Below are positions 14,521 to 46,241 of a DNA stretch of 64,000 bases, in pieces; the stretch's first letter is position 1, and every line of letters begins with the position of its first letter. Source of the stretch: Bacteroidota bacterium (GTDB taxonomy: Bacteria > Bacteroidota > Bacteroidia > Flavobacteriales > Schleiferiaceae); NCBI GenBank assembly GCA_024742495.1, contig JANSYJ010000001.1:1-64000 (forward strand), in the 5' to 3' direction. The notes below the pieces were generated by a model. The model saw only the letters and a list, made by a program, of their open reading frames with translations, did not search any database and was not told the DNA's origin. The position numbers and the translations under genes are program-made.

Positions 14521-15651
14521 TTACAAATCTAAAGGATTTACGATGGATTTGAAGGAATCATTCGCAACGTGGGTGTAGATCTCCGTGGTTTTGCTGGATG
14601 AATGACCCAACAAAATTTGAATGCGACGAAGGTCAATGCCGCTCTCCAAAAGATGCGTGGCAAAACTGTGCCGCAGCATATGCGGCGTAATGTTCCGCTT
14701 TATACCGGCCTTCTCCTTGGCCGATTTCAAAATACAACGCACACTACTAGAACTGTACCGCTTTCTTAATGGACCTTCGAAAAGCCAGTCCTTTGGACGA
14801 TAAATCTTATAGTACTCGCGTAAATCGGTCAAGGTCTGCTTGGCTAATAAGGTCAATCTATCTTTGCCGCCCTTGGCGTTTTTCACGCGAACCAACATGC
14901 GGAAACTATCTATATCCGTGATCTTTAAATTTATCAGCTCACTACGGCGTAAACCAGCCGAATACAGCAAGGAGATAATGCATTTATGCTTAATGTTCTC
15001 GGTGTTTTTCAATAATAAGTTCACCTCCTCCTTGGAGACTACTTCTGGTAAACTCTTCTTCTTAATCGGTCGCTCTATATGGTAAAAACGATTGGGCATG
15101 CCCAAAACCACTTCATAGTAGAACTTAATGGAATTAATGGCAATGTTAATCGCCGAATCGGACTTGTTCGCGTGAATCATTGTTTGAAGATAAGCGCGAA
15201 TATCCCCCTCATTAATCTCCATCAAATCCCTTTCCTTGAAATGATTAATAAAAGTCTCAAAGGCACTGATATAGCTCTTTACCGTGTTATTGGCATAGCG
15301 GCGGAGCTCTAGTTTTAATAAGTATTCTTCCGGACAAGTTCGCCTACTTGGCGACGGACTCCGCTTGCGAAACCATTCTACATCCATGACTTCTCCCGAA
15401 TGCTGTTTCGTAGGACGGTTCTGGAAAAAATAAGAGGTGTTAACCCAGGCGAATCCACGAAAAGTGCTGAAAATTAATTTGAGTTTTTCCTTGTTGTTCG
15501 GTACATAAACCATGTTGAACTCCTTGCTCCATTTGGCCTCACCCAAGCTGACGGCCAAACTTTTTAGAACCTTATCCTGCTGGAATTGAAGTCCAATAAA
15601 CTTCTCATTGGCAATCACCAAATGCTTTAATGTAATGTGTCTCTTAGGCAT
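14521..15651 (-). CDS. Tyrosine recombinase of the cassette array (integron-integrase analogue, Xer-like)
   Basis: This 376-residue tyrosine recombinase has all catalytic residues: Arg235 (GLRRSE), Lys263 (GGKDR), His324 and Arg327 (HMLRH), His350 (LLGH) and Tyr359 (IYTHV). An extra N-terminal region of about 100 residues precedes the SAM-like core-binding domain (about 105-190). This style is common in Bacteroidota. Between GGKDR and the HxLR box there is no IntI-type insertion. The gene points into the array, the inverse of classical integrons but as described for spirochaete integrons. A promoter driving it could also transcribe the first cassettes. Its role on these attC sites is inferred from position and polarity. 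Confidence 0.8.
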   Translation of the reverse strand: MPKRHITLKHLVIANEKFIGLQFQQDKVLKSLAVSLGEAKWSKEFNMVYVPNNKEKLKLIFSTFRGFAWVNTSYFFQNRPTKQHSGEVMDVEWFRKRSPSPSRRTCPEEYLLKLELRRYANNTVKSYISAFETFINHFKERDLMEINEGDIRAYLQTMIHANKSDSAINIAINSIKFYYEVVLGMPNRFYHIERPIKKKSLPEVVSKEEVNLLLKNTENIKHKCIISLLYSAGLRRSELINLKITDIDSFRMLVRVKNAKGGKDRLTLLAKQTLTDLREYYKIYRPKDWLFEGPLRKRYSSSSVRCILKSAKEKAGIKRNITPHMLRHSFATHLLESGIDLRRIQILLGHSSSKTTEIYTHVANDSFKSIVNPLDL

Positions 15652-19150: not shown

Positions 19151-19167
19151 CCAAAATTTCTTCAGTC

Positions 19168-20220
19168 ATGGATCCGAATGCCGGAAAAAAGAATTTAATA
19201 AACCGCTACAGTCGCGAAGAGTTAGAAGCACGCCTTATGGCGGAAGACTTTAAACGGGTAACCCTATCCTTTTACCGCTATGTGATTATTGAAGATGCCC
19301 AAGCGATGCGCGACCAGCTTTTTGAGGAGTGGAGCCATCTCAACTGCCTCGGGCGAATATACCTGGCGCGAGAAGGCGTAAATGCTCAAATGAATGTTCC
19401 CGAGCATCATTGGGAGCAGTTCGTAACAGAGCTTCAAGCCAAGCCAGAGTTTAAAGACATTCCCCTAAAAATTGCGGTGGAAGACGATGGTAAGTCTTTC
19501 TTAAAATTGGTGATCAAAGTGCGAGAGCGAATTTTAGCGGATGGCCTGGAAGATGATTCTTATGATGTAACCGATGTAGGACGTCATTTAGATGCCAATG
19601 AATGGAATGAGGCCATGGAAGAAGGAGCGCTGGTAGTGGATATGCGTAACCATTACGAAAGTGAAATCGGCCACTTCGAAAATTCCATCCTGCCCCAAGC
19701 AGAAACCTTCCGAGAGGAATTACCCGAAGTTTTGGATAAATTAAAAGGAAAGGAAGACGAAAAAATCCTACTCTATTGCACCGGCGGCATTCGCTGCGAA
19801 AAAACCTCAGCTTTCCTTAAACATCATGGCTTTAAAGATGTAAATCAATTACATGGAGGCATCATCGATTATGCCCGCCAAATAAAAACTAAAGAATTAC
19901 CCAATAAATTCCATGGTAAGAATTTCGTTTTTGATGAGCGCCTTGGCGAAAGCATTTCCTCGGAAGTAATATCCAAGTGTCATCAATGTGGCGAGCCTTC
20001 CGATAGCCATGTAAATTGCGCCAACGTAGCCTGCAACCTGCTCTTTATTCAATGCGAAAAATGTGCGGAAAAGCATGAGAAATGCTGTTCAGATGACTGC
20101 CAAGAAGTAGTGCACCTCAGCGCGGAAGAACAACGCGAATTGCGCAAGGGAAAACAAAACCCACAACGATACCACAGCCACATGCGCTGGGGCGATTTAC
20201 ATAGCAATCCTAAAAACTGA
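19168..20220 (+). CDS. trhO: tRNA uridine(34) hydroxylase TrhO, rhodanese family
   Basis: This 350-residue protein makes 5-hydroxyuridine at the tRNA wobble position using oxygen. It has an N-terminal acylphosphatase-like domain (about residues 30-125). The rhodanese domain (about 140-235) follows, with the active-site loop CTGGIRCEK starting at Cys204. The C-terminal cysteine-rich segment ([20 protein letters not shown] ..., then [17 protein letters not shown]) is typical of TrhO/YceA. Length and order are normal for the family. It is followed 61 bp later by hmgA but is probably separate in function. Confidence 0.93.
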
Positions 20221-29792: not shown

Positions 29793-30430
29793 AAGAAGAG
29801 TTGAAAGATAGGCGCCCACGATTGCGCATAAGGAGAACTTTCGTCGTGCAAAACATTTAAGCGTAAGCCAATCTGCATAAAGCCTCCATTCCCCAATTTC
29901 TGGTAAATACCGCCTTGTATAAATAAAACCGGGGTCCAGGCATTACTTATATCAAAAGCGCCACGGGAATTATTATAGGTGTACACATCATGATTTAGCA
30001 CCTCCAGCTGAGTGCCTACAAAAGCGGAATTAAATAAATTGTAATTCGCAAATACATTGGGGCCATGAATTTGATTTTCAAAATCCACCTCCTGAAAGCC
30101 ATTAGAAGTTAAAATGGTATTCCATTTTGCGTAGTTATACATATAGCCTAGGCCCGCAACCCAATTATCATTTATCTGATATCCCACCTGTGGGGCAAGA
30201 AAAATATTGGTATTGTCTCCAAAGCTTAAACCAGCACCACCGCCATATACCAATCGATCCATAAATCCCTTGGGCTCCGATTTCGCTGCTGCTGCCTTCT
30301 GACTGCTCGAATCCACTTCAGTTTTTGGACTTGGACTTGTTTTAGGCCTTTTGCGAAAGCGCTCACTTTGTGCTTCGGCGGCAAAGGAAAATAGAAAGCA
30401 AACAAATAGAGGTAGATAGAGCTTTTTCAT
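29789..30430 (-). CDS. Putative outer-membrane beta-barrel protein
   Basis: This 213-residue protein has a signal peptide (residues 1-20, ending AEAQ), then a Lys/Pro/Ser-rich linker (about 24-52). An eight-strand-like barrel follows, with alternating residues, many Tyr/Asn/Gly and a terminal Phe (PIFQLFF). It resembles the small OmpA/OmpW-like barrels of Bacteroidota. It is divergent from sucA and convergent with the preceding small ORF. No specific function is assigned. Confidence 0.6.
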   Translation of the reverse strand: MKKLYLPLFVCFLFSFAAEAQSERFRKRPKTSPSPKTEVDSSSQKAAAAKSEPKGFMDRLVYGGGAGLSFGDNTNIFLAPQVGYQINDNWVAGLGYMYNYAKWNTILTSNGFQEVDFENQIHGPNVFANYNLFNSAFVGTQLEVLNHDVYTYNNSRGAFDISNAWTPVLFIQGGIYQKLGNGGFMQIGLRLNVLHDESSPYAQSWAPIFQLFF

Positions 30431-30515
30431 GTAAACAAAAATAAGGTCAAGATGCTTAATATAGTAGCATTAAAATTTTTAAAAGCATCGTTCAAATAAC
30501 GCGCTATATTTATTA

Positions 30516-30523
30516 TAATTTTG
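30516..30523 (+). promoter_or_regulatory. Bacteroidota -7 box of the sucAB operon
   Basis: TAATTTTG fits TAnnTTTG and ends 25 bp before the sucA ATG. An upstream -33 TTTG is not obvious. Confidence 0.5.
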
Positions 30524-30548
30524 TAGCCAATTTCGCCACGCGACCATC

Positions 30549-33296
30549 ATGGACAGATTTTCCTTTCTTGGAGGAGTACACAGTACCTTTATAGATGAAC
30601 TTTACGAGCTTTACCTAAAGAGCCCCGACAGCATTGAGCCTAGTTGGAGAGCTTTTTTTCAAGGTTACGACTTCGCTCTTGAAGAGTATGATGGTGAAGG
30701 TGGATCCGCCTTTGCCCTTAATCACTCGGAAATTGTAGAAGAGATTCGCAAAGAATTTCAGGTTTTAGCACTAATCGACGCTTACCGTCGCAGAGGTCAC
30801 CTCTTTACCGCAACTAACCCGGTACGTACTCGCCGTAAATACGATCCAAGCCTTGCCATTGAAAACTTTGGTTTAGAGCAAAGCGATCTTAACTTACCTT
30901 TTCAAGCGGCCAAGGAAATTGGCTTTGATGAGAGTAAAACCTTAAAAGACATCATCCAACGCTTAGAGGAAGTTTATTGCCGAAGCATTGGTATTGAGTA
31001 TATGCATCTGGACCATCCCGAGCGGATTAAATGGGTGCAGGCACAAATTAGGGTTAATAATAATTACCCGGACTATAGCGCCGAAGAGAAGAAGCTAATA
31101 CTGCACAAGCTCAATGAAGCGGTAGCCTTTGAAAACTTCATCAACCGCAAGTTTGTTGGTCAAAAACGTTTCTCCATTGAAGGAGCGGAAAGTCTTATTC
31201 CTGCCTTGGAGTTTGGAATTCGCCGCGCCGCAAAATTGGGAGTAGCCGAATTTGTGATGGGTATGGCCCACCGAGGTCGCCTAAATGTGCTCACCAATAT
31301 TTTTGGGAAAACCCAACGCGACATCTTCTCCGAATTTGAAGGAAAAGAGTTTACCGATGAAGAGTTTGATGGCGATGTAAAATACCATCTGGGTTATACC
31401 ACCACCAAGGAATTGGATAATGGTGAAAAAATAAAATTAAACCTTTCCCCTAACCCTTCCCACTTGGAAGCGGTAGATGCCGTGGTTACGGGAATTGCAC
31501 GCGCTAAAATTAATACCGATCACAACAAAGACAAGTCTAAAGTGATGCCCATTCTCATTCATGGAGATGCGGCTATTGCGGCTCAAGGCATTGTTTATGA
31601 AGTGCTACAAATGGAAACCCTTGACGGTTATCACACCGGGGGAACCATCCACATTGTAATTAATAACCAAGTTGGTTTTACCACCAATTACTTGGATGCG
31701 CGCTCGAGTATTTACTGTACCGATATTGCCAAAACAGTGCAGGCTCCCGTTTTGCACGTTAATGGCGACGATGTAGAAGCAGTAATCCACGCCACCTTAT
31801 TTGCGATGGAATACCGCCAACGTTACAATCGCGATATTTTCATCGACCTCCTTTGTTACCGTAAATACGGGCATAATGAAGGTGATGAGCCACGTTTCAC
31901 CCAGCCTTTACTTTATAAAAACATCAACAAGCATCCGAATCCAAAAGAGATTTACGCTGATAAGCTAAAGGAAGCTGGACTAATAGATAAAGCCTTTTTA
32001 AAGGAATTAGAAACGGAGTTTAAAGAAGTGCTGGAAATGCGCTTCGATGAATCGAAAAAAATTGAGAAAAACACCATCACCCAATTTATGGAGGATGAGT
32101 GGAACGGCTTCCGCACCGCCGAGCCGGAAGATTTCGAGAAGTCGATCGACACCTCTTTCGATATCGAGAAACTCAAAGAAATTGCCCGCACCATTACCAC
32201 CCTTCCCGAAGGGAAAAAGTTCTTCGTGAAAATCAAGAAATTGATGGATGAGCGTTGGAAAATGGTGGACGAAAAAAACAGTCTGGATTGGGGTATGGCT
32301 GAGCTAATGGCCTATGGATCTTTAATTGTTGATGGCTATAATGTGCGCATCAGCGGGGAAGATTCGGAAAGGGGTACCTTCTCTCACCGTCATGCGGTGG
32401 TAAAAGTGGAGGACTCTGAAGAAGAGCATATGCTGCTCAACAATATTCCCGAAAGAGAAGGTCGTTTTGCCGTGTACAACTCCCTACTATCGGAATACGG
32501 CGTGCTTGGTTTCGATTATGGCTATGCCATGAGTTCGCCAGAAACGCTGGTAATTTGGGAAGCCCAGTTTGGTGATTTCTTCAATGGCGCTCAGATTATT
32601 GTAGACCAATTCCTGTCGGCCGCCGAAGATAAATGGAAGGTTCAAAATGGCTTGGTACTTTATTTACCCCATGGCTATGAAGGACAAGGAGCAGAGCACA
32701 GTAGCGCCCGCTTAGAGCGCTGGCTACAGCAATGTGCCCAGTATAATATGCAGGTAGTAAACGTAACTACCCCTGCTAACTTTTATCATTTACTGCGTCG
32801 CCAAATGAAGCGCGATTTTAGGAAGCCCCTCATTATAATGACCCCCAAAAGTTTGTTGCGTCACCCTAAGGTGCAATCGCCTTTAGAGGATTTAGCTAAT
32901 GGTAGTTTCCAAGAGTTATTAGACGACCCACGTATTGAGGACCGCAAGAAAGTGAAGAAACTCTTTTTCATGAGCGGTAAACTCTATTATGATGTGGATA
33001 AGCAAAGGGATTCGGAAATGCCAGAGGATCGGGCAATGATTCGCTTGGAGCAGATGTATCCTTTGGTGGATGATCAGATTAACGATTTGATCGCCAGCTA
33101 CCCCAATGCCGATGAAATATATTGGGCTCAAGAAGAGCCAATGAATATGGGAGCCTCTTGGTTCATCCAAATTCACTTCCCTGTAAAGGTTAATAAAGTG
33201 TTGGCCATTCCTGCCAGTGCCAGTACTGCCGCCGGCTCATCGAAATTGGCCGCCAGCAAACACAATACTTTGATCAAAGAAATATTCAACACCTAG
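30549..33296 (+). CDS. sucA: 2-oxoglutarate dehydrogenase E1 component
   Basis: This 915-residue thiamine-diphosphate enzyme of the TCA cycle decarboxylates 2-oxoglutarate and passes succinyl to E2. The N-terminal FLGGVHSTFIDELYELY lies at residues 5-21, which is the usual E2-binding region. The motif GMAHRGRLNVL lies near 239-249, the ThDP-binding HGDAAIAAQGIVYE near 337-350, and GHNEGDEPRFTQP near 445-457. Length is normal. It is followed 15 bp later by sucB. There is no E3 gene here, as is common. Confidence 0.95.
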   Translation: MDRFSFLGGVHSTFIDELYELYLKSPDSIEPSWRAFFQGYDFALEEYDGEGGSAFALNHSEIVEEIRKEFQVLALIDAYRRRGHLFTATNPVRTRRKYDPSLAIENFGLEQSDLNLPFQAAKEIGFDESKTLKDIIQRLEEVYCRSIGIEYMHLDHPERIKWVQAQIRVNNNYPDYSAEEKKLILHKLNEAVAFENFINRKFVGQKRFSIEGAESLIPALEFGIRRAAKLGVAEFVMGMAHRGRLNVLTNIFGKTQRDIFSEFEGKEFTDEEFDGDVKYHLGYTTTKELDNGEKIKLNLSPNPSHLEAVDAVVTGIARAKINTDHNKDKSKVMPILIHGDAAIAAQGIVYEVLQMETLDGYHTGGTIHIVINNQVGFTTNYLDARSSIYCTDIAKTVQAPVLHVNGDDVEAVIHATLFAMEYRQRYNRDIFIDLLCYRKYGHNEGDEPRFTQPLLYKNINKHPNPKEIYADKLKEAGLIDKAFLKELETEFKEVLEMRFDESKKIEKNTITQFMEDEWNGFRTAEPEDFEKSIDTSFDIEKLKEIARTITTLPEGKKFFVKIKKLMDERWKMVDEKNSLDWGMAELMAYGSLIVDGYNVRISGEDSERGTFSHRHAVVKVEDSEEEHMLLNNIPEREGRFAVYNSLLSEYGVLGFDYGYAMSSPETLVIWEAQFGDFFNGAQIIVDQFLSAAEDKWKVQNGLVLYLPHGYEGQGAEHSSARLERWLQQCAQYNMQVVNVTTPANFYHLLRRQMKRDFRKPLIIMTPKSLLRHPKVQSPLEDLANGSFQELLDDPRIEDRKKVKKLFFMSGKLYYDVDKQRDSEMPEDRAMIRLEQMYPLVDDQINDLIASYPNADEIYWAQEEPMNMGASWFIQIHFPVKVNKVLAIPASASTAAGSSKLAASKHNTLIKEIFNT

Positions 33297-33311
33297 ATTT
33301 CAATAATTACC

Positions 33312-34529
33312 ATGAGTGTAGAAGTAAAAGTTCCCTCACCCGGAGAATCGGTTTCCGAAGTAGAAATCGCGAGTTGGCTAGTTGCTGATGGCGACTACGT
33401 AGAAAAAGACCAAGAAATTGCCGAAATCGATTCCGATAAAGCGACCCTAGCCCTTCCCGCTGAGGAAAGTGGCCTCATAAAGCTTATTGCCGAAGAGGGA
33501 GAAGCCGTGGAAGTTGGTCAGGTGATCGCAACCATCGACACCGATGCCGAGGCACCGGAAGGTGGCAGTGCACCAAAGCAAGAAGATAGCGAGGAAAAAG
33601 CGACCGAAAGCGCCGCTCCTGCCCCGAAAAAAGAAGATAGCAAAGAAACCTATGCCAGCGGTTCTGCTTCACCAGCAGCCCGTAAAATTATTGACGAGAA
33701 AGGCATTGATGCCAGTCAGATTAGTGGCACCGGACGCGACGGACGCATTACCAAGGAAGACGCAATGAATGCGGAAGTGAGCATGGGTAGCCCTGGCAAT
33801 TCGCCTCGCCCCAGCGAAACTTCCCGCATGAGCAGCTTGCGCCGAAAGCTTGCCAAGCGTTTGGTGAGCGTGAAGAATGAAACGGCCATGCTAACCACCT
33901 TCAATGAGGTGAACATGCAGCCCATTTTCGACCTTCGGAAAGAATATAAAGAAGACTTTAAAACCAAACACGGCGTAGGCCTTGGTTTCATGAGTTTCTT
34001 CACCTTAGCCGTGGCACGGGCTCTAAAAGAGTTTCCACAGGTAAATAGTATGATTGACGGCGATAATATGATCAGCTTCGATTATGCAGATATCAGCATC
34101 GCTGTGAGTGGCCCCAAAGGCTTAATGGTTCCCGTTCTTCGCAATGCCGAGACGATGAGTTTTGCTGGCGTTGAAAAGGATATTAAGCGATTGGCTACCA
34201 AGGTGCGCGATGGCAAAATTACCGTAGATGAAATGACCGGTGGAACCTTTACCATTACCAATGGTGGTGTATTTGGCTCCATGCTTTCTACGCCAATTAT
34301 TAATCCACCCCAAAGTGCCATTTTAGGAATGCACAATATCGTGGAACGTCCAATGGCGGAGAATGGTCAGGTAGTTATTCGCCCTATCATGTACGTTGCC
34401 TTAAGTTATGATCACCGCATAATTGACGGTCGTGAATCGGTAGGCTTTTTAGTAGCGGTTAAAGAGGCCCTCGAGAACCCTAGCGAGCTACTAATGAACA
34501 ATGAAGTAAAGAAAGCTCTAGAGCTCTAA
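33312..34529 (+). CDS. sucB: Dihydrolipoyl succinyltransferase, E2 of 2-oxoglutarate dehydrogenase
   Basis: This 405-residue E2 has one lipoyl domain (residues 1-75; the lipoylated Lys is in EIDSDKATL near residue 44). A Lys/Glu/Ala/Pro linker follows, then the E1/E3-binding domain (about 115-150; [14 protein letters not shown]). The catalytic domain (about 175-405) ends with [16 protein letters not shown], the His/Asp active site. It is co-transcribed with sucA, and a terminator follows. Confidence 0.95.
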
Positions 34530-34562
34530 ATAGTATTAAATACTAGTAGAACTATAGTCATT

Positions 34563-34597
34563 TGCCATCCTAATTGCTTTAGGGTGGCATTTTTTTT
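34563..34597 (+). terminator. Rho-independent terminator of sucAB
   Basis: TGCCATCCTAA and TTAGGGTGGCA form a stem with a short loop, followed by eight T. Confidence 0.8.
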
Positions 34598-34674
34598 ATA
34601 TCCTCTTTAACCAAGCTCAATAGCGCTCGTGGGAAATCCATATTATGGAAGAGAAGCCCAGCTAATTCCACCGA

Positions 34675-35004
34675 TCAACTTGCAAAGTCTATTTTTTGGT
34701 TCAGTAATTCAAGCTTAAAGCTGACTTTGACATTCAAAGCTCTAAACACTTTCAAAATGGTTTCAAATCGAGCGTCGGTCAAATTATTCTCGATTTTAGA
34801 AATCTGAGCCTTCTGAACTCCGACCAAGGTGCCGAGTTGTGCCTGGCTTAGTTTCCTTTCAATACGGACTTGTTTAATTGCCTGTCCAATTAAGTCCAGT
34901 CTTAATTCATTCTCGAATTCCTCTCTTGCTGCCGTTCCACTTTCACCAATAAATTTGTCGGTAATTTCATCAAGACTTTTTGTTTTCAATTCTTTCGCCT
35001 TCAT
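34675..35004 (-). CDS. HigA-like XRE antitoxin
   Basis: This antitoxin of 109 residues has a C-terminal Cro/C1 helix-turn-helix (about residues 45-100; KLSQAQLGTLVGVQKAQISKIEN). The N-terminal KELKTKSLDEITDKFIGESGT region is the family-specific toxin-contact part. I start it at ATG 35004; the longer frame reaching 35112 overlaps the toxin gene. It lies four bp after the toxin stop, giving the toxin-first order of HigBA systems. It probably represses its own promoter with the toxin. Confidence 0.8.
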   Translation of the reverse strand: MKAKELKTKSLDEITDKFIGESGTAAREEFENELRLDLIGQAIKQVRIERKLSQAQLGTLVGVQKAQISKIENNLTDARFETILKVFRALNVKVSFKLELLNQKIDFAS

Positions 35005-35008
35005 TATC

Positions 35009-35347
35009 CTATTCCTTATTATTAAAGTAATTTCTCCTAATTCTTTCCGTCTTTTTAATTTCCCTAATTGGAGTTTTAAGGCTTTTCTTTTCAATCCCAT
35101 GGGTAGAAACAACTACAGTTCGAGTTTTGTCCATTTTATCCCAAAAAGCAAAAAGCCGGTAATAGCTACTATTGTAATGGGTTCTAAACTCCCAAACCGT
35201 GTGACTTAGTTTTTTGAAGAGTTCACTGTCATTTATAAATTGTGCTTTCTGAAGATTATAGATAATCTTCCTGCGCGCTTTATCATCTAATCCACTTAAA
35301 AAGTCTTCGACCTCTTCCATTAATTCAATTCTAACTTTTTGCTTCAT
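35009..35347 (-). CDS. HigB/RelE-like toxin (Gp49-type)
   Basis: This basic protein of 112 residues has the RelE/HigB fold pattern, with FLSGLDDKARRKIIYNLQKA near residues 17-36. The core strands KKLSHTVWEFRTHYNSSYYRLFAFW and VVVSTHGIEKKSLKTP carry basic residues for mRNA cleavage at the ribosome. It is first in the operon and is followed by its antitoxin. The pair is immediately left of the Pnkp-Hen1 insertion, just outside the 237-bp repeat. Confidence 0.8.
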   Translation of the reverse strand: MKQKVRIELMEEVEDFLSGLDDKARRKIIYNLQKAQFINDSELFKKLSHTVWEFRTHYNSSYYRLFAFWDKMDKTRTVVVSTHGIEKKSLKTPIREIKKTERIRRNYFNNKE

Positions 35348-35476
35348 TCAATGAAAGGGATTATCAAAGTTAATGTTTCTTTATTAGGAAACTATCTGGT
35401 GCCGAATTAAACCCCCTACTAATAAAATGAGATTAGACTAATCCATAATCAGACAATTCAAACTAAAGAAGAGGCA

Positions 35477-35727
35477 TCATGAACTATAGACCCTAATAAA
35501 AAGCACTTTTAAACTCTTATCGTGGTAATTAGCTCCACTTATAAAATAGTCCACGAAAATCCCTTTCAATAGGCTTGGAGGCGCTATCAACTTCTTAAGC
35601 ACTTTGCCATTGCTAAGCTGCATCTCCAGCATTAAATCGGCACTAGCCAGACTCGTAGATCTTACTATGCTGGCATGATCGGCACTAAACCATTCTGAAG
35701 CTTTTATTCCTTTGCTTAGTTGCTCTA
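35477..35727 (-). pseudogene. Displaced 3' fragment of the membrane-protein gene (left copy of the direct repeat)
   Basis: Positions 35491-35727 repeat 39894-40130 without gaps and with three mismatches in 237 bp. The minus-strand frame stays open through it and continues past the repeat to a TGA at 35477-35479, ending KVLFIRVYSS instead of KVLYIRATNL. The mismatches cause only conservative changes (Tyr/Phe, Val/Ile, Asn/Ser). It has no start and is the remnant left when a segment inserted into the gene 3' end. The flanking 35348-35490 and 35728-35774 stretches show no gene. Confidence 0.85.
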
Positions 35728-35774
35728 TATACTGCGTAAAAAGGGATCAGAAGTTGCTAATAGGAGAAAAGTTC

Positions 35775-38354
35775 TTACAATCGTGGATCAACATCTTCAC
35801 TTTCTAATGCTAATACTCCAAAAACACTTTCATGAATTCTCCGTAAAGGTTCCTTTCTTATGAACCGCTCTAATCCTTCTACTCCCAAAGCAAATTCCCT
35901 TAGTGCCAAAGAGCGCTTTCTCGATAAACCCCTGTTTTTAAGCCTCTGCAAATTCTCTGGTAGGTCGTACTCAGGCCCGTAAATTATCCTCAGATACTCA
36001 CTACCTCTGCATTTAACCGCCGGTTGTAAGAGCCCTTCTTTACCGAATGAAATGAAGTCAAAAGGCTTAACCACCATTCCTTCTCCACCTTTATTTGTCA
36101 TTTCGGCCCACCAGTCAATGGCCTTTTGAACACTCTCTCTATCATTAGTTTCCACAATTTTGTAGGGCGTGACTGTAAGTATTTCTTTGTCTGCATAGCA
36201 AACTTCCTTTATATTCTCCATATGCCAGAGATGGTCTCTATCTACATGAACCGCGCCCTCAGTGGCAAGAATATGGAATGGTGCTAATCTATAATCATCA
36301 ACTGAATTGACATCCCAACAGTAATTCCGGTAAGCATTTATAAACTTAGAAACAGCTTTCTTCTTATAGCTGAATTTTTCTAAAATCCCTTCAACCCCCG
36401 AGATACCCCTGTCTTTTGTTGATTGAAGTGTTTGTTCAACTGAACTCAAAGATCCTTTGGCAGCTGAACCTACTGAAGCATATTGGTCTTTTAATAAAGA
36501 TTGAGCTTTTGCAGACCATGGCATTAATTCAGCATCCAGGCAAACCCAATCAGTTTTAAACTTATCCCAAAAGCCTGATACGCTTAAAGCCTTTTGAACT
36601 CTAGCTAGAAACTCCTTTTCTAAAGCAGCATCGTTAAAAAAGTTTCTCCCAGTTCGGGTGTAACAGATGCCAATTCCCTCATTTTCGATTCCAAAACGAT
36701 TTAAAACTGTCTCTTCATTTTTACATACCACTAATATCACCCTTGAACCCATATGCTTTTCTTCGCATACGATTCTTTCGATTCCTCTTTTCTTATAATA
36801 ATTGATGGCTTCTTTTGGGTGTTCCAAATAGTTTGGAAGTTCACTTGTGGCGCATGGTGACATTGTTGGCGGTAGATAAATGAGCCATTTAGGGTTTATT
36901 GCAAAACGGCTCATAACTTCCAATGCGGCAATAGAATTTTCTTCTCGAATCGTCAAATTGCTTCGCAGGCGGGTTTGCACAATTCGTTTTCCTATTACGT
37001 CATCGATATTCAACAAGTCATCATATTCCTGCTGATGACTTAGCTTTAAGTCAGGCTCTGATAATAAGGGTTTTACGGGCTCTGAATACACTTTTGCCGC
37101 TTTAACGGAGACTAATTCATCTTCAGGATAGCGCAGGGCGGTAAGTTTCCCTCCAAACACACAACCGGTATCAATATCAATAGTCTTATTAAGCCATTCC
37201 GCACTAGGTACCGGGGTGTGACCATAAATAACCTTTGCCTTTCCTCTATACTCGGAGGCCCAGTTGTATCTAACGGGTAATCCAAATTCGTCAATTTCTC
37301 CCGTAGTCTCCCCATACAAGCAAAATGACCTTACTGCACCTGAACCTCTACCCTGCATCTCTTCTTTTATTCCAGCATGGGCAACAGCCAATTTTCCTTC
37401 ATCCAAAATGTAATGGCTTATCAGACTGTATAAAAACTCTTTAAGATCAGCGATAAACTCAGGTGTTTCATTATCCAATTGTTCCATTGTTTCGGCTAAA
37501 CCGTGTTTCAACTGAACATTTCTCCCATTCAATTTCTTTTGAAGCTTCACATCATGGTTCCCAGGGACGCAAAGTGCTGAGCCACTGCGTACCATACTCA
37601 TCACTAATTTTAAAACCGCTGGCGAATTTGGGCCCCTGTCTACTAAGTCACCTAAAAATATCACCTGCCTATTCTCAGGGTGCTTTATTTCCAGACCATA
37701 ATTTCTTCCATCATTCTCAACTGAAGAAATGATATAGCCTAGTTTCTTTAAAAGGGCAATTGTTTCTTCATAACAACCATGAATATCTCCAATTATGTCA
37801 AAAGGCCCTTGAAGCTCTCTTTTATCATTATAGAGCTTTTCTCTAATGATGCTAGACACGGAATTTACTTCCTCCTCACTTTTTAAAACGTAAATTTTTC
37901 TAAAGCCCTCCCGTTTAAGTCCTTTTATTGACCTTTTAAGTTGTTGTTTTTGTTGTCTAATTACATGATCCCCAAAGTTTCTATCCTGCCTGTTTGCGTT
38001 TCTATCTTCGCAAACCCTTTGAGGCAAGTCTAAAACGATCGCCACAGGTAAGGCATGATATTGTCTTGCTAGTTCAATCAGCCCTTTTCGAGATTCGGCT
38101 TGGACATTCGTTGCATCCACCACGGTTAGATGTCCATTCTTGAGTCTTTTTCCAATTATGAAATTCAATAAATCAAAGGCATCATTTGTTGCAAACTGAT
38201 TGTTCTCATCATTTGATATAATTCCTCTGCACACATCAGAAGAAACAACCTCGTAATTACCAAAATGTGTTTTGGCAAAAGTGCTTTTTCCTGAGCCTGA
38301 TGCACCAATAAGCAAGACTAAAGATAATTCCGGTACTTTAATTTCCATATTCAA
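35775..38354 (-). CDS. Bacterial Pnkp: polynucleotide kinase-phosphatase-ligase
   Basis: This 859-residue RNA end-healing and sealing enzyme has an N-terminal kinase with the P-loop GASGSGKST at residues 17-25. A central binuclear metallophosphatase follows (about 180-430; GDIHGCYEE, GDLVDRGPNS, GNHDVKL). The C-terminal adenylyltransferase ligase has its motif-I lysine at 533 in EEKHMGSR. Bacterial Pnkp works with Hen1, which methylates the 3' end so the repaired RNA resists recutting. It overlaps hen1 by 17 bp. Length and domain order are normal. It is the cargo of a 4.4 kb insertion. Confidence 0.93.
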   Translation of the reverse strand: MNMEIKVPELSLVLLIGASGSGKSTFAKTHFGNYEVVSSDVCRGIISNDENNQFATNDAFDLLNFIIGKRLKNGHLTVVDATNVQAESRKGLIELARQYHALPVAIVLDLPQRVCEDRNANRQDRNFGDHVIRQQKQQLKRSIKGLKREGFRKIYVLKSEEEVNSVSSIIREKLYNDKRELQGPFDIIGDIHGCYEETIALLKKLGYIISSVENDGRNYGLEIKHPENRQVIFLGDLVDRGPNSPAVLKLVMSMVRSGSALCVPGNHDVKLQKKLNGRNVQLKHGLAETMEQLDNETPEFIADLKEFLYSLISHYILDEGKLAVAHAGIKEEMQGRGSGAVRSFCLYGETTGEIDEFGLPVRYNWASEYRGKAKVIYGHTPVPSAEWLNKTIDIDTGCVFGGKLTALRYPEDELVSVKAAKVYSEPVKPLLSEPDLKLSHQQEYDDLLNIDDVIGKRIVQTRLRSNLTIREENSIAALEVMSRFAINPKWLIYLPPTMSPCATSELPNYLEHPKEAINYYKKRGIERIVCEEKHMGSRVILVVCKNEETVLNRFGIENEGIGICYTRTGRNFFNDAALEKEFLARVQKALSVSGFWDKFKTDWVCLDAELMPWSAKAQSLLKDQYASVGSAAKGSLSSVEQTLQSTKDRGISGVEGILEKFSYKKKAVSKFINAYRNYCWDVNSVDDYRLAPFHILATEGAVHVDRDHLWHMENIKEVCYADKEILTVTPYKIVETNDRESVQKAIDWWAEMTNKGGEGMVVKPFDFISFGKEGLLQPAVKCRGSEYLRIIYGPEYDLPENLQRLKNRGLSRKRSLALREFALGVEGLERFIRKEPLRRIHESVFGVLALESEDVDPRL

Positions 38355-39735
38355 AAACTGCCATTTGTGAAGGTGCTCCTACTTTATCATCTTCTTCTCC
38401 AATAGGAAAGAATTGCACTTTATAGTTATTGTTTTTTGCGATTCGCTTTCCCCAAGTTTCAAATTCAGTTCGCGACCATTCAAATCTGTGATCAGTATGA
38501 CGCATTGTACCGGCTTCCATGCTTTCAAAAAGTACATTGTACTCCCCGTTTGGCGTAGTAAGGACAACAGTTTTAGGTTTAGCAGATTCAAAAACAACTC
38601 TTTCAAAAGATTTCAATCTGTTCTCATCGAGGTGCTCGATAACCTCTACGATTGCCGCCGCGTCAAATCCCTCCAATCGCCTGTCCTTATAGGTCAATGC
38701 ACCTTGAAATAAATTAATTCTTTCTCTTTGCCGCGGCGCCATATCATCCCAGTGTAATCTGTCTTTGCATCTCATTAATGCCTGGTAAGAGACATCCATT
38801 CCACTTATCTCACTAAACTGTTTTTCCTTTAATAACATTCGAATTAACTTACCTTCACCACAGCCCAAATCAAGTACCTTTTTTGCCCCTGATTCTTTGA
38901 GTTTACCGAGAACGATGGATAGTCTTTGCTGATGCAGAGTCTCCTTTTTCTCTAATTCCTTGGTATTCGCGTTGTCCATAAATTCCTTTGATCCTTCATG
39001 ATCATTCAATCGGTCCAATGCCTGCCGCGAAAGAGAATTAAGATTAAATAGGTAGCGCCTTGTTATTTGTTCTTTTTCCGGATGATTCGATAGCCAGCCT
39101 TTTCCTTTCTCTAGCAGTTTTTCAATCTCATTCTGACTAACATAGTAATGCTTGTCATTATCCAATGCAGGAATCATTACGTAAAGATGTGAAAGCAAGG
39201 ATTGAAGCGTAACTGTATGACTCAATTTTAAAGTAAAATACTTGCTGTCTCCCCAATGCATAAATTCCTCATCTAAAACATGAGGCTCCAATTCCACCTT
39301 ATAGCCGAGGGGTTCAAACATTTTTCGAATCAGAGTTTCTCCTCCTCTTGGTGCCGGTAAAACCGAAATAGTTACTTGAAATGGCATTTTCACATTTACC
39401 AATTCGGGCCTGTTACTGCATTTACCATTCATTGCGGTCGAAAAGGCCTTTGCAATTGCAACACTCATAAATGAAGATGCTACATAAGGTCGATCGTTGA
39501 CATATTGACCTAGAGAGAAACCCTTTCCAGATAAGTTTCTTCCACCTTTTACCATATCTATTGGGTCAATATCCAATAGCAAAGAAGCGGTAGTTCGCTC
39601 TTCAGAATTCTCTGGATAAAAAATATGAGCCTTTCCAATCGATAAATCAATGGATTGGAACTTGTCGGGATGCTTGTGCAGTAAAAACCCTAAATCCGTT
39701 GCTGGTTTATGTTCTGTCGTTATGTTAAGTAACAT
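38338..39735 (-). CDS. Hen1 3'-terminal RNA ribose 2'-O-methyltransferase
   Basis: This 465-residue protein has an N-terminal Hen1-L/ligase-activating region (about residues 1-240, with a KMFEPLGYKVELEPH segment) and a C-terminal methyltransferase. The SAM-binding motif is KVLDLGCGEGKLI near 286-298. The metal-binding catalytic part contains EVIEHLDENRL near 364-374. Hen1 adds a 2'-O-methyl mark to the healed 3' RNA end, and its N-terminal part activates the ligase of Pnkp. It is transcribed ahead of Pnkp with a 17-bp overlap. Confidence 0.92.
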   Translation of the reverse strand: MLLNITTEHKPATDLGFLLHKHPDKFQSIDLSIGKAHIFYPENSEERTTASLLLDIDPIDMVKGGRNLSGKGFSLGQYVNDRPYVASSFMSVAIAKAFSTAMNGKCSNRPELVNVKMPFQVTISVLPAPRGGETLIRKMFEPLGYKVELEPHVLDEEFMHWGDSKYFTLKLSHTVTLQSLLSHLYVMIPALDNDKHYYVSQNEIEKLLEKGKGWLSNHPEKEQITRRYLFNLNSLSRQALDRLNDHEGSKEFMDNANTKELEKKETLHQQRLSIVLGKLKESGAKKVLDLGCGEGKLIRMLLKEKQFSEISGMDVSYQALMRCKDRLHWDDMAPRQRERINLFQGALTYKDRRLEGFDAAAIVEVIEHLDENRLKSFERVVFESAKPKTVVLTTPNGEYNVLFESMEAGTMRHTDHRFEWSRTEFETWGKRIAKNNNYKVQFFPIGEEDDKVGAPSQMAVFEYGN

Positions 39736-39879
39736 TGATTAATATTATCATTTAGCCCTAGTAAAATGAGCAGCAGGTCTGTTGCTTACCATTGAAATTG
39801 TGGCTTTGTGACCCTGCTATTCATGAGATTAAAAGATATGGCTTGTTGGCGTCCACCCCATCTCGCAAAAGAAAGAGCA

Positions 39880-41538
39880 TTACAAATTAGTTGCCCTAAT
39901 ATAAAGCACTTTTAAACTCTTATCGTGGTAATTAGCTCCACTTATAAAATAGTCCACGAAAACCCCTTTCAATAGGCTTGGAGGCGCTATCAACTTCTTA
40001 AGCACTTTGCCATTGCTAAGCTGCATCTCCAGCATTAAATCGGCACTAGCCAGATTCGTAGATCTTACTATGCTGGCATGATCGGCACTAAACCATTCTG
40101 AAGCTTTTATTCCTTTGCTTAGTTGCTCTAATGAGAAATCCTTAAACACTAGCTCCTCTCGATCCGCTGGTTTTTTCTTTAGGTATTCTGCATAGCTTCC
40201 TTTTAAGCTTTGCAAGTCATAAGCCCCATAAATATGCGCTACGGTGTAAGCATTTGTAAATGCTAAGTAATTGCCATTAATGTCATTTCTATCCGACCAA
40301 ATAGCATTAGGGTTTGGACTATGCACCAATAAGCGCTGATGAAGGTCTATAAAATTCAGTGAATCTAAGCGCGAGGAAAGAGCCGCATAACTGATATAAG
40401 AGGGCCTTAATTGAGGCCAAAGCCCTTTTTGTTCTTTCCCAATATTTAATGAATAAGGGAAAACCGAATAGTCTCCCATAAAGGATTCCGTCTTTTCACT
40501 TTTTAATCTTGATAATTCCTTCCCAAGGTTCTGCCAGGCATATAAGGGGTCGAGTTTGGTGAACTTAAAACTCCCAGGCACTAAGTGGTAGTTTAAGCCC
40601 CAGAGGACAGCCAGTAATAATGCCAAACAACTCAGCTTCAGTAGGCTAAATGTTCCTTCATGCGCGTACAAAAGCATCACTAAGAGCCATTGCAAAAGCA
40701 AGGCAACATACAAGGTCCCTGGGTCTGGACGAGAATACACATAAAGTGTTGAAATCAAAAAGACCAAAAGCAAGGGCATCCTTTTCTTTAAACTGATGCC
40801 TATATAAGTTGATAGGGCAAAAGCCACTGTAAAAAACAAGAGAGCGGCCAATATAATTCTTGGCTGCCAAGGCACATTCACTTCATAAGGCGCATTTGAT
40901 AAAACGGCCCTATAATGCTCCCAAAGGATTAGGGGTTTTAAACCAAATGGAAGGAGGACAAAAAAAAGAAAAAGGCAAATGCCCAATGCTAAAGGGATTC
41001 TATTCTGTTCAAGCTTTTTTCCCCATTCTTGATGAGATAAAAGAAGAAATAGACAAATCCCGCAAAGCATCAGGGCGACTGACAAACGAATATTCATCAG
41101 CAAAGCCAAAAGAAGAGCAATTAACACTATGTCCCATTTATTGCGAGGCTTAAGAACTATAAGAAAAAGCAAAGCGATTGGCATAAAGCGCATGCCTATC
41201 GTGAAATACATCAAAATGAAAAGCCCAACCTTCCCCCAAGGGGAGGAAAATGGCAAGCGCCAGACTATGGCGAGGTTTATAACCGAATAAAAAGCAAAGG
41301 CTAAAACATAATTCCATCCAATATCCAGCGGATACTGAAGAAAAGCCAAAAGTCCATGCGGCACATGGCTATGTATTAACTCCCCCTTTAAAATAAGATC
41401 GAAAATTAAATTTTGCCCAGATCTGATTGAGGCATCTGAATGGTCGCCTAAGAAAAGATAGGCCTTAGGGGCAAAAATGAGCAATACCCCGACATAGAGT
41501 AAAATATTGGGCCAATTGACTTGCCTTGCCTTTGCCAT
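39880..41538 (-). CDS. Polytopic membrane protein of unknown function
   Basis: This 552-residue inner-membrane protein has about ten hydrophobic segments in residues 10-325. A soluble C-terminal domain (about 335-552) resembles the soluble part of membrane glycosyltransferase-like proteins, but I cannot assign a family. The last 80 residues are duplicated at 35477-35727, and the gene's 3' end is probably the entry point of the Pnkp-Hen1 segment, which gave it the ending KVLYIRATNL. It follows the CheB-CheR kinase by 12 bp on the same strand, so they may be one operon. Confidence 0.6.
   Translation of the reverse strand: MAKARQVNWPNILLYVGVLLIFAPKAYLFLGDHSDASIRSGQNLIFDLILKGELIHSHVPHGLLAFLQYPLDIGWNYVLAFAFYSVINLAIVWRLPFSSPWGKVGLFILMYFTIGMRFMPIALLFLIVLKPRNKWDIVLIALLLALLMNIRLSVALMLCGICLFLLLSHQEWGKKLEQNRIPLALGICLFLFFVLLPFGLKPLILWEHYRAVLSNAPYEVNVPWQPRIILAALLFFTVAFALSTYIGISLKKRMPLLLVFLISTLYVYSRPDPGTLYVALLLQWLLVMLLYAHEGTFSLLKLSCLALLLAVLWGLNYHLVPGSFKFTKLDPLYAWQNLGKELSRLKSEKTESFMGDYSVFPYSLNIGKEQKGLWPQLRPSYISYAALSSRLDSLNFIDLHQRLLVHSPNPNAIWSDRNDINGNYLAFTNAYTVAHIYGAYDLQSLKGSYAEYLKKKPADREELVFKDFSLEQLSKGIKASEWFSADHASIVRSTNLASADLMLEMQLSNGKVLKKLIAPPSLLKGVFVDYFISGANYHDKSLKVLYIRATNL
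39894..40130. repeat. Right copy of the 237-bp direct repeat bounding the Pnkp-Hen1 segment
   Basis: It matches 35491-35727 at constant offset 4403 with mismatches at three positions and no gap. It is the 3' part of the intact gene 39880-41538. Sequence outside the repeat on both sides is unrelated. No integrase or transposase lies between the copies. Confidence 0.9.
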
Positions 41539-41550
41539 TAGCGGATTTTA

Positions 41551-44500
41551 TTAGCTTTCCTCGGCCAATTTAAGTATTACATTAACCAAATCCTTTTTAC
41601 GCAAAGGTTTTGCCAGGTAATCGTCGAAACCCAAATCCAAATATTTTTGATGATCAGAGCTCATGGCATTGGCGGTTGTTGCGACAATTTTCGCTTTTGC
41701 ATGAGACTCTTTAATTTGTGTCATGGCCTCTACACCATCCATCAAAGGCATTTGAATATCCATAAGTACCACGTCAATTTTTGGGCGTTCCTTATAAAGT
41801 TTAACTGCTTCTAGGCCATTTTCAGCAATATTTAATTCTAAGTCATAATTACGAAACAAAGCCTTGAGATATTGGACGCTCGCCTCGCTATCTTCAGCAA
41901 TCAATATCCTTAAGCCGTTAAGGTCCTCTGCATTTCGCTCCTGCTCCTCTTTTTTTTCTAATTCCTCCTTATGGCCCATTTCTAGTGGCAAGGTGAACTT
42001 AAAGGTGGAACCCCTTCCCACTTCGGACTCAACGGTCATTTGGCCTCCAAGCAGGTTTAATATACCGCGGCAAATAGACAGGCCTAGTCCAGTGCCATCA
42101 TACCTCTTTTCTAAAGTATCCAGATGCTCAAAGCGATCGAAAACACGTTCTAACTTCTCCGGCGGAATACCAATGCCTTGATCTTTCACATAAAATTCTA
42201 CCAAATCCACTCGGCAGTGATAACCAAATTCGATTTTTCCTTTCTCCGAAAATTTTATCGCATTCCCCAATAGATTGGTTAGAATCTGCTGAAAGCGCAT
42301 GGCGTCTGTTTCCAAGATGAGGTTGTCTTCTTTTTCGGGAATCTGGGCCAGCAATTTAAGTGGGGCATTGCGCTCCTTGATCGTTTCCTTAAAGCTCCTC
42401 TCTAAACTCCTAACTATGTCGCTTACATTAACATTCTTGCAACTAATCTTTAATTCGCCCGCTTCAATTTTCGCGACATCCAAAATATCATTAATCAGTC
42501 GCAGCAGCTGAGCTGAAGCATTGTTAATATGATCTAAGTATTCGTTGCGTTCCTGCTTATCAAGATCTTCGTTACGTAATAGATCGGCAAAGCCAACCAT
42601 CCAGTTGAGTGGCGTGCGGATTTCATGACTCATATTGGCCAGAAATTGGGTTTTGAGAACATTGGCCGAATCTGCTTCTTTTACCGCCTGTTTAAGCTCC
42701 TCCTGATAATTTTTTTGTTTAGTAATATCTATAAAAGCCCCAATCATCTGCTTTACGCCTCCTTCCTCATTCAGCTCAAATGGAGCATCAATCGAATAAC
42801 ACCAAACCCAGTGCCCATCCTTGTGTTTAAAGCGATACTCAAGTCGATCGGCTGTTCTATCCGATAAAACAATTCCCATGTGCTTTCCCACCGCCTCCTG
42901 GTCATCAGGATGAAACAGACTAAAAAAAGCTTCGGGGCTCATAGCGTTAATCTCATCCTTGGAGTAACCCAATAAGCCCTGATATTGCGGATTAATAAAA
43001 GTGTTTTTTTGTTCCTCAAAATCGTAGATATATATAGCGGCTGGAGAAATATTACTTATTCGACTGGAGAATTGCCTTTCGGCTTCAAGTCTTAACATAA
43101 GTTCTTTCCTTTCAGTAATATCCTGAGCAATACCTCTAGCATATATTACCTGCCCGTCTCGATCAAACTCCGCTTCACCCTTAACAAAGAGCCAGCCTTT
43201 TTCACCATCCACACGAACAAAATTGAGCTCCATCTCATAAGCCGTACCCTTGAGCACCAATTGCTCCACAGCCGCGCTCAAACGCTCCCAAGATTCAGGA
43301 CTAAATAGCTTTGCATGGTCATCGTATCCAGGAGGAGCTAGGCCTGGATCAAGTCCATACATTTTGTACAGCTCATCAGTCCAATCCACATCATTGGTTT
43401 GAACATTCAAAATCCAGCTGCCAATTTTCGCCAGCTTTTGAGATTGGAGTAATTCGGCTTGCTTTAACCTTAAGGATTCTTCCTTTAGCTTTAGCTGATC
43501 TACATCTATGAAGTTTATAACCAGTCCCTCAACAATATTATCATTGGTAATAAAGGGAACTATCCTTTTTAGAAAAGTCTTCCCATTTTCATCAACAATC
43601 TCCCTTTCGGTTTCTTTTAAATCCTTGAGGACCAATTTAGAGTCATTAATTATTGATAAACGATCATCTTCACTAAAGCTAGAAGCAAAGCTGCTTATCG
43701 GTCTACCGATGTCGGTGTCTCCAAGTTTAAAATGGCGCTTTAATTCAGGCGTGAAATTGCGGATATTTAGCTCGGAGTCTAGGAAAAGTGTGGCAATATT
43801 GGTACTGTTAAGGAGGTTCGCTAAATCATCATTAATCAATTTGAGACGATGGTTTGAATCCTGTAGCTCCGCATTTACCGTGTAAATTTCTTCATTTACC
43901 GATTGAAGTTCCTCATTGGTACTTTGCAACTCCTCGTTAGATGCCATAAGTTCCTCATTGGAAGATTGTAACTCTTCATTGGTGGTTTCTAACTCCTCAA
44001 TCGTTCTTTGTAATTCCTCCTCCGCAATTCGCAAACGATCTTGCAAATAATTAATACGCTCTTCTTGAGAATCGGAGGACTGCACCGGCTCCAGAACTTT
44101 CACCTTATTGCTAAAAGGCCTATTCTCACTGAAGTGAATAAGATAGGCTCCCTTTAATTGATTCTCGATTGGCCTGTGAAAAACCAAGTCAAACTCCGCG
44201 CTTTCCTCTTCCGGATCCAAAACATCATTAATCCTAATTTCCTGGGTCTTCGGTTCGCCTTTTAGGACCTCAACCCCCTTTCGCACCTGTGCTGCAAGCC
44301 TTGGGCTAAGCATTTTTAAAAGATTGTCTTGAAAGACACCCTCCTGATGCTTTAAACGTGCCCCCACATTGCCAACCAGAAACAAAATGTTGAAGTTTTC
44401 ATCGACAAATAAGGAGGCAGGACTAAAGCGTTTCCCAAGGTAGCGGTAAAACAAATCCGCTGCGCCGGTAGTTGGCTTGCGCATTCCAGGTTCCCTTAAG

Positions 44501-45999
44501 GCTATTGCCGGTTCAACGCTCCTTTTTCGATTTGAAAACTCATACTCGCTGCGTTCTAAGTTTGGATTAGGCTCACCCACTTTTTGAAAAAGGCGCCATT
44601 TCTCATCAATAACCTTGAATCCTCCTTGTACGGGTCCAAGCGATTCACTACTCCCTAAAAAGAGAATGCCTTTTGGGTTTAATGAGAATTGAAAGTTCCG
44701 AAGAACTTTACTTTGAGCTTGCGTATCAAAGTAGATTAATAGATTACGGCATGAGATTAAGTCCAATCGAATAAAAGGGGGATCATTAATAATATCATGT
44801 TTTGAAAACACGATTCGATCTCTAATGCGCTTTACAACCCTATAATCGGCACCTTCTCCTACAAAGTACCTATCTAGATAGGTCTCTTCTACTTCATTAA
44901 TAATATTTGCGTGATACACGCCCTTACTAGCGGTTGTAATCGCTTCGCCGTCTACATCCGTCGCGAATATTTTATAATTAACACGTGTATTGGTTTGGTG
45001 AATGTATTCATCAAAAAGAATTGCCATGGTATAAACTTCCTGACCAGTAGAGCATCCAGGTATCCAAATACGTACTTCTTCATCCTCCTGCTTCCTTTGT
45101 ACAATTTCCGGTAGAATCCAGTCATTAAATAATTGGAAGGCTGGTGTATCCCTAAAAAAACTGGTAACGCCAATCAAAAAATCCTGGCCCAAGGCAATAC
45201 GCTCACTATGATTGGCATCGAGGTATTCTTTATAAGCCTGTAATGAGCTTACTCCGATTAAACCCATTCGTTTTTCAAGGCGCCTTAAAAGGGTGTTGGG
45301 TTTGTACAATTTAAAATTGATGCCAGACTCGCCTTGAACTAGACTTAAGATTTTTTGAAATATCGCCTCCTCGTTTAAGTTCTTATCATCCGTTAAACTA
45401 GAGATACGGGTACGGTTTGGGAACTTGCTGATGAGCTCAGCAATTTTTATTATTGGCAGTACAAAATCAGTAATACTTGTCGCAATAGCTGAACCCGGCA
45501 TCCCATTAAATTGAGCCTCTCCTGGATCTTGTACTAAGACTAAACCTCCTTTTTCCTTTATGGTTTTTATACCCCTCGACCCGTCCGAGCCGGTACCTGA
45601 AAGAATAATCCCTACCGACCGTTCGCCATGTTCTTCGCCTAAAGTTTGAAAGAATATATCGATGGGCAAGTTTAAATAGCCTTTTGGTCCTTTCGCCATC
45701 GAGAATAAGCGATCCCCCTTTATGTGTAAATTCTTTTTACCATCATTTAAATAAATGGTATTTGGCTTAATAAGTTGCTTATCACCCGCCTTTACAATTG
45801 GGATCTTAGTATGCCTTGCCAATAAATCAGGCATTAAGCTTTCGAAATCTGGCGCTAGATGTTGGATAATCACAAAGCTTAAACCAGTATCAATCGGCAT
45901 ACGAGCAAAAAGCTTTTGAATAGCATCTAGACCACCGGCAGATGCTCCGATTCCAACCACATAGGGATCGATCGGTTTTGGCTTAGGGGTTTTAGCCAT
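41551..45999 (-). CDS. CheB-CheR-PAS hybrid histidine kinase with receiver
   Basis: This 1482-residue signalling protein fuses several modules. A CheB methylesterase-like domain (about residues 10-190; GASAGG with Ser20 and GTGSDG) comes first. A CheR methyltransferase-like domain (about 205-470; [10 protein letters not shown]) follows. A coiled coil of repeated NEEL/SNEEL units (about 640-720), PAS domains (about 720-1095) and a histidine kinase (phospho-acceptor His1125 in MSHEIRTPL) come next, then a C-terminal receiver (Asp1414 in LMDIQMP). No flagellar genes are nearby. In such hybrids the Che domains probably act as sensory inputs. It is a likely regulator of the gene downstream. Confidence 0.9.
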
Positions 46000-46241
46000 A
46001 AGGGGAGAATTTTAGTGCGTTTCTGACTCTCCCTAAGTTAGAAAAAAAATCACATGATAATCCTGAGAAAAGGCTAAGACCCAGAATTTCAACAAGCTCG
46101 GTGATTCTTTAGCGGTTTTAATATTGAAATAACCTTAAAGCTTCTGTTATTCAGTTGTTCAAATTATAACTTTTTGCAAGTCTAAAAATCCAATATTTGG
46201 AATTCGATAGGTTTTAGTTCTCCTGATGCGTCATACATTTC

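Follow-up and report, generated by a model that had tools for sequence, protein, structure and literature searches.

The window, the whole 64,000-nucleotide stretch of DNA analysed here, contains a slot of variable content between odhB and the first exbD-type gene (Table 1). This slot holds a gene for a CheB/CheR-PAS kinase, a gene for a 552-residue protein, hen1 and pnkp, and a HigBA-like pair, whose HigB-like member we take from its family to be an mRNA interferase. The hen1 and pnkp genes, which overlap by 17 bp, make up an insert that reads leader, hen1, pnkp and tail, all on the minus strand. The Hen1 protein scored 707 bits against TIGR04074 (cut-off 340) and also matched PF12623, and Pnkp scored 1435 bits against TIGR04075 (cut-off 750) over positions 1-851 of 851. 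By family, domains and shared operon, the pair is predicted to be a Pnkp-Hen1 RNA repair system. Such systems are described as sealing RNA cut by ribotoxins and 2′-O-methylating the joint, which then resists recutting; in 2015 they were known from about 250 bacterial species, always as one operon (PMC4411300). Sealing of RNA with 2′-O-methylation at the joint is the function predicted by family for the window cargo.

Table 1. Features of the slot, of the remainder of the window and of the loci compared with it; positions refer to the window unless a locus or contig is named.
Feature	Position	Strand	Basis or remark
Variable slot, odhB to first exbD-type gene, 11.7 kb	34530..46241		relatives compared
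HTH antitoxin-like gene	34675..35112	-	PF01381; TIGR03070 score under the cut-off
HigB-like toxin gene (Gp49 family), native-side neighbour	35009..35347	-	PF05973
Left repeat copy	35491..35727	-	start-less 3′ gene fragment, C-terminus VYSS, taken as native 3′ end
12-mer TAGAGCAACTAA	35716..35727	-	insert/left-copy junction
Insert tail, 47 bp	35728..35774	-	no attC seen
pnkp: kinase (AAA_33), phosphatase (Metallophos) and ligase/adenylyltransferase domains	35775..38354	-	TIGR04075; PF13671, PF00149, PF16542
hen1: 3′-terminal RNA ribose 2′-O-methyltransferase with ligase-associating N-terminal region	38338..39735	-	TIGR04074, PF12623
Leader upstream of hen1, 158 bp	39736..39893	-	supplies last codons (ATNL) and stop of the 552-aa gene
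12-mer TAGGGCAACTAA	39887..39898	-	straddles right-copy/insert junction
Right repeat copy	39894..40130	-	inside 3′ end of intact gene; stops 14 bp short of gene end
Intact 552-aa orphan membrane-protein gene (target)	39880..41538	-	ORF and profile searches
Integron-like tyrosine recombinase	14521..15651	-	PF00589; about 20 kb from insert, outside it
Pnkp-Hen1 with cassette-like bounds	L092:7840-12120; L101:7840-12120; L078, L079, L094 around hen1-pnkp		hen1 of L092 split in two frames
FabH-like gene case, own genome	L154:5770-8725 (contig C22, about 329.8-332.7 kb)		tail duplicated around 1.5-kb cargo
GNAT gene case, congener G005	L223:14311-16340		129-bp tail, 93%, around cargo

Two gap-free direct-repeat copies of 237 bp, identical at 234 positions and offset by 4403 bp, enclose the insert. 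The initial annotation had described this repeat with its three mismatches, had named Pnkp and Hen1 as the sole content between the copies, and had read the left copy as an open frame with a different C-terminus; sequence comparison bore out all of this. The mismatches fall at 35499, 35560 and 35652 and are all non-synonymous (N/S, V/I, Y/F), the other open reading frames between the copies run antisense to hen1 and pnkp, and the left copy ends in KVLFIRVYSS and a stop codon whereas the intact gene ends in KVLYIRATNL and a stop codon. Outward of 35727/40130 the identity of the copies is at background level. Outward of 35491/39894, 16 of 31 positions are identical in register, a value equalled by 38 of 20,000 random pairs, and the repeat may continue faintly there. 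Since a 311-bp query containing the repeat found two sites only in the 3.6-Mb genome, the second copy at E 1e-116, the repeat is neither a chance match nor a dispersed repeat. The longest exact stretch common to both copies is 91 bp (35561-35651), so assembly should keep them apart. No inverted repeats of at least 25 bp were found in 30000-46000; shorter ones at the insert ends were looked for by eye. Both insert ends carry a 12-mer (TAGRGCAACTAA) that is identical at 11 of 12 positions; spotted post hoc, such a match is reached by chance in 0.13% of random pairs and 0.33% of GC-matched pairs, and it could be a site-specific core.

At E 0.001, the product of the target gene matched neither a Pfam nor an NCBIfam family. 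Homologues were found in three of 58 other genomes searched, the best of them (42% identity) in the congener G002 and in the same slot, where it lies beside exbD and is followed by a Fic gene and then the contig end. The left copy remains open over some 87-89 codons and lacks a usual start codon where the frame begins. It agrees with the G002 homologue at an I/V position and, with less certainty, at an S/N position, which, with one outgroup at 42%, weakly suggests that the left copy is the native 3′ end of the gene. The intact gene bears the insert-side 3′ end, its last codons being supplied by the insert.

Comparison with related genomes confirmed that the slot is variable. It measures 60 bp in G005, 219 bp in G004, 797 bp in G001 and 1596 bp in G003, with a gene for an AbiEii-like nucleotidyltransferase in G001 and one for a cytochrome c peroxidase in G003, and in G006 another gene lies beside odhB. 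No relative was seen to carry both repeat copies and lack Pnkp-Hen1, a check of low power in which a good homologue of the 552-aa gene was present in G002 only and the G002 contig stops 1.3 kb beyond it. Toxin- or defence-like genes occupy the slot in three genomes of the genus (HigBA in the window, Fic in G002, AbiEii-like in G001). At about 49.5-50.5 kb of the window, repeats spaced by about 187 bp directly follow a tRNA-Ser gene.

The distribution, divergence and composition of the operon were then compared with those of its host. Hen1_L was present in two of 88 genomes of the family, at different loci, and Hen1 scored above cut-off in three of 395 sampled genomes of the order. Between the window and G005, Hen1 is 66% and Pnkp 72% identical, against 88-90% for odhB. 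In G005 the pair lies in a different slot, with a 754-aa gene on one side and a gene identified by eye as GAPDH-like on the other, and has no flanking repeat of at least 25 bp; in G003 the matches to these neighbours are 114 bp apart, and G001 has other content. Third-position GC is 0.34-0.35 in Pnkp-Hen1 compared with 0.42-0.48 in exbD, sucA and odhB. The nearest Hen1 proteins come from a Flavobacteriia MAG (76%), NORP154 (74%), a KSB1 bacterium (74%) and a planctomycete (71%). In the Pnkp tree (31 rows), the window groups with G232 (support 99/99) within a supported nine-row set that includes KSB1, Planctomycetota and Cyanobacteriota rows and from which the congener is excluded, and in the Hen1 tree (34 rows) window and congener stand unresolved in one open 15-row set. 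By these comparisons, Pnkp-Hen1 is foreign to the host, with its nearest relatives in other families or phyla.

Carriage of Hen1 by known vehicles was also considered. Three phage records all showed less than 60% identity, the best of 23 plasmid records reached 63% (a Leptospira noguchii plasmid), and the one match in IMG/VR was weak (33% over residues 229-297). Among 37 Hen1 loci, several of which have short flanks or lack pnkp, none matched the 552-aa gene, so the repeat belongs to the site and not to the cargo. Direct repeats of at least about 60 bp lie on both sides of Pnkp-Hen1 in four of the 37 (L072, L076, L092 and L101). At E 1, the 158-bp leader matched nothing in the other loci compared.

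Thirteen loci were compared, and the boundary test was applied to the seven that had been chosen for DNA-level likeness upstream of hen1. By their record titles, these loci of one clade come from Sphingobacterium, Flavisolibacter, Rhabdobacter, Pararhodonellum, a Bacteroidales MAG and two Ignavibacteriota MAGs. Their common DNA unit starts some 80-170 bp before hen1 (mostly about 160); its end, which varies with the pair compared, lies 10-135 bp past pnkp. Between Sphingobacterium and an Ignavibacteria MAG, this unit is 93.5% identical at the DNA level over 4.2 kb. A G^TT core (GTTATAGCC or GTTACCGCC) lies 160-162 bp before hen1 in six of the seven, with unlike sequence upstream of it; L075 has no such start core. 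R″, the reverse complement after pnkp, was examined in six loci: it matched at 9 of 9 positions in three (1-2 of 2000 shuffles) and at 8 of 9 in two (25-29 of 2000 shuffles), and was absent from L074. Pnkp-Hen1 therefore appears to be bounded like an integron gene cassette in five of the seven loci of this clade, strongly so in three, although errors in MAG binning could feign the cross-phylum cases. In IGN3, repeats beside the pair gave at least 10 matches within 51 kb, hen1 is split in two frames, and an adjoining IntI-like match has in-frame stops and falls below the family cut-off.

Of 30 named loci put through a simple attC scan, one had a site next to hen1. This was L070, whose Hen1 is the closest to that of the window and which has an attC-like hairpin just upstream. 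In the seven-locus clade the scan found no site beside hen1. We think that it misses composite sites, and the cassette claim rests on the boundary comparison and not on the scan for this reason. Chlorobi, Ignavibacteriae and Salinibacter are documented as carrying complete integrons (PMC9024848), and toxin RNases have been described in integron cassettes in a paper whose available text contains neither 'Hen1' nor 'RNA repair' (PMC3710099). A literature search for Hen1 and integron as whole words found nothing that links the two; among the looser matches listed, a methyltransferase study has 'integron' only in its references and the rest are resistance or clinical papers by title. No RNA-repair cassette appeared among the top matches listed. 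If Pnkp-Hen1 is an integron cassette, this would help to explain its patchy spread across phyla and would add RNA repair to the functions of cassettes.

The window has an integron-like array of its own at 1-14520, on the minus strand and with attC-type hairpins; the first nucleotide of the contig already lies within the array. A repeat of some 0.5 kb, without ORFs of at least 90 aa, occurs seven times in this array, along with cassettes for AccI restriction-modification, for a CDI immunity protein and for a HAD domain of RNA-repair proteins. The Pnkp-Hen1 copy in the window has neither a 3′ attC nor a 5′ G^TT boundary.

A repeat survey of about 1.2 Mb of the same genome beyond the window and of twenty 20-kb stretches of G005 and G003 yielded two further insertions with the same anatomy, one in a FabH-like gene and one in a GNAT gene, and no clear case in G003. 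The FabH-like case lies on the same contig as the window. Its duplicated tail of about 370 bp ends at the stop codon, and the 1.5-kb cargo encodes an ArsR-type regulator, a MerT-HMA protein and a 68-aa protein. The orphan tail stands beside a convergent FG-GAP-repeat gene, as does the intact FabH-like gene of G002; to judge from this arrangement, G002 is the empty site. The FG-GAP-repeat neighbour had no match in the compared flanks of five other relatives. The FabH-like copies differ in seven codons, six of them synonymously, and the orthologues gave no clear sign as to which copy had changed. In the GNAT case, the copies differ in eight codons (six synonymous) and the cargo includes an N-terminally truncated DnaB_C fragment, the missing part of which faces the junction about 75 bp away. 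In all three cases, identity stops no more than 14 bp from where the intact gene ends, and little is shared between gene side and insert side past the inner ends of the repeats.

Three other survey candidates (L148, L212 and L222) were inspected and their anatomy does not fit, L242 from G003 begins at the end of its stretch, and L160, L184, L185, L193, L194, L208/L209, L218, L220, L231, L239 and L249 were assessed by script labels only. In L148, two fragments that by eye resemble an Rhs core stand in direct repeat (86%; 19102-19253 and 3.9 kb onward) around small ORFs, which is perhaps a displaced toxin/immunity cluster.

Neither ORF inspection nor profile searches found a recombinase inside the insert, in agreement with the initial annotation, which had noted the absence of an integrase there. 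Four proteins of the genome match PF00589: two have the size of Xer recombinases (306 and 317 aa) and are taken for XerC/XerD, one is integron-like and one is a weak match. No PF00239 match was found in the genome; the same family was detected in 10 of 14 control genomes. The integron-like recombinase aligns with IntI4 in two parts, apparently lacks the IntI-specific insertion, and has XerC-like and XerA proteins as its best PDB matches. TIGR02249 matched tyrosine recombinases in all seven genomes and in all 14 controls, none above cut-off, so such a match is not proof of an integron integrase.

We consider it somewhat probable that a single crossover driven by homology placed a 4.2-kb foreign piece at the 3′ end of the 552-aa gene, and we give this reading the first place, a little above an even chance, ahead of a local duplication and then of a decayed integrative element. 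A donor fragment with a near-identical 3′ end of the 552-aa gene followed by hen1-pnkp would enter the cell, and its ends would be joined without homology into a circle that keeps 237 bp of the gene. RecA-type recombination inside these 237 bp would then integrate the circle, leaving an intact hybrid gene with the last codons of the donor, the cargo, and the stranded native tail beside the native downstream genes. A dedicated recombinase would be unnecessary, and the same homology could undo the insertion. The donor, the circle and the role of RecA are what we infer, and the reading is favoured because of the anatomy, the variable slot, the foreignness of the operon, the lack of a recombinase, the two further cases and a precedent in E. 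coli. In line with it, one gene end is partly duplicated and the inner junction lacks homology. Against it, the donor is hypothetical, as none of the 37 Hen1 loci carries the 552-aa gene, and the Hen1 tree leaves window and congener unseparated; the three differences between the repeat copies, all non-synonymous, are explained no less well by a local duplication than by a donor allele.

Such a duplication of the tail, before or during the insertion, with hen1-pnkp joined between the copies, is rather unlikely in our estimate. It could have arisen as a tandem duplication at microhomology (TAGAG/TAGGG, period 232 bp) or by repair copying of the tail. Zero synonymous and three non-synonymous differences suit a recent local copy, and an imperfect 12-mer at both ends is, by our reasoning, the trace to be expected from insertion at a tandem junction. 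However, two events would be required, and the two other genes with the same anatomy show mostly synonymous divergence, which suggests that their tails come from functional gene copies. The 11/12 match of the 12-mer also keeps a site-specific element in play, namely a gene-restoring element like e14 in icd, decayed or reduced to its cargo (cis-mobilizable-like) and moved by a recombinase in trans, with the repeat as attL/attR. The anatomy equals that of e14/icd (PMC11148124), with a duplicated 3′ gene end and the reading frame kept, and the 12-mer direct repeat at the insert ends has a chance probability of 0.1-0.3%. The insert consists of hen1 and pnkp only and encodes no site-specific recombinase, though, searches of the genome with PF00589 and PF00239 gave four proteins and none, respectively, the G005 pair lacks a flanking repeat of at least 25 bp, and the three cases have no obvious core or cargo in common. 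We regard this origin as improbable, and a dedicated integrative element as unlikely.

The initial annotation had proposed an integrative element that restores its target gene. An insertion, a variable slot and a restored gene were all found, but a dedicated element is not supported, with no recombinase inside. Of the two routes it had suggested, homologous recombination is now favoured; for mobilisation in trans, the PF00589 and PF00239 searches gave four candidate proteins, all of PF00589. That the resident integron-like recombinase, some 20 kb away, inserted an integron cassette at a secondary site is very unlikely: cassette boundaries do occur around related Pnkp-Hen1 units in several genomes, and 1-15.7 kb of the window holds both an attC-type array and a recombinase, but only 47 bp without an attC follow pnkp, neither boundary has a cassette-oriented G^TT core, no cassette leader was seen, and the alignment of the recombinase with IntI4 falls into two parts, as though the IntI-specific insertion were missing. 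The assembly is a draft of 32 contigs, yet an assembly artefact is hardly conceivable given three differing sites, a longest exact stretch of 91 bp, four different flanks and the position of the locus within a 704-kb contig.

Insertion by a single crossover would make the locus a concrete case of a ribotoxin-repair operon that entered a chromosome without the machinery of a mobile element, and the order gene tail, cargo, second tail provides a signature that can be searched for. A wider picture, in which cargo is repeatedly captured behind 3′ ends in this genus without recombinases, reversibly and with restoration of the gene, and Pnkp-Hen1 passes from phylum to phylum as an integron cassette, is tentative and, taken whole, somewhat doubtful. 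Should the recurrence be borne out, single-crossover insertion could account for some of the recombinase-less gene gain seen in variable slots.

The window pair has the same genes, domain make-up and operon as the bacterial Pnkp-Hen1 system (TIGR04075/TIGR04074), and differs from known examples only in its genomic setting, the proteins being alike at the family level. Relatives elsewhere share the boundaries of integron cassettes, whereas the window copy lacks an attC and lies outside the array. The closest anatomical parallel described is e14 in icd of E. coli K-12, with a 165-bp duplication in which 12 nucleotides and two residues are changed and the frame is kept (PMC11148124). As in the window, a duplicated 3′ gene end surrounds the cargo, with the intact frame upstream and an orphan fragment downstream; the window repeat is longer (237 bp) and has three differences, and e14 encodes an integrase where the insert has none (PMC11148124). 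For one-sided homology in E. coli, 56 of 60 recombinants were reported to be the duplication product, with duplications of 109-950 bp in the 14 that were sequenced, and these were ascribed to recircularisation and a single crossing-over (PMC3240628); merodiploids made by transformation are also on record (PMC3784515). The lacZ integration in that E. coli work was made with a laboratory plasmid and the window case is deduced from sequence, but in both the homologous end is partly duplicated and no recombinase is involved (PMC3240628). Finally, variable content between conserved neighbours is what is described for transfer hotspots flanked by core genes (PMC5635113), to which the window adds a duplicated gene tail as an extra feature.
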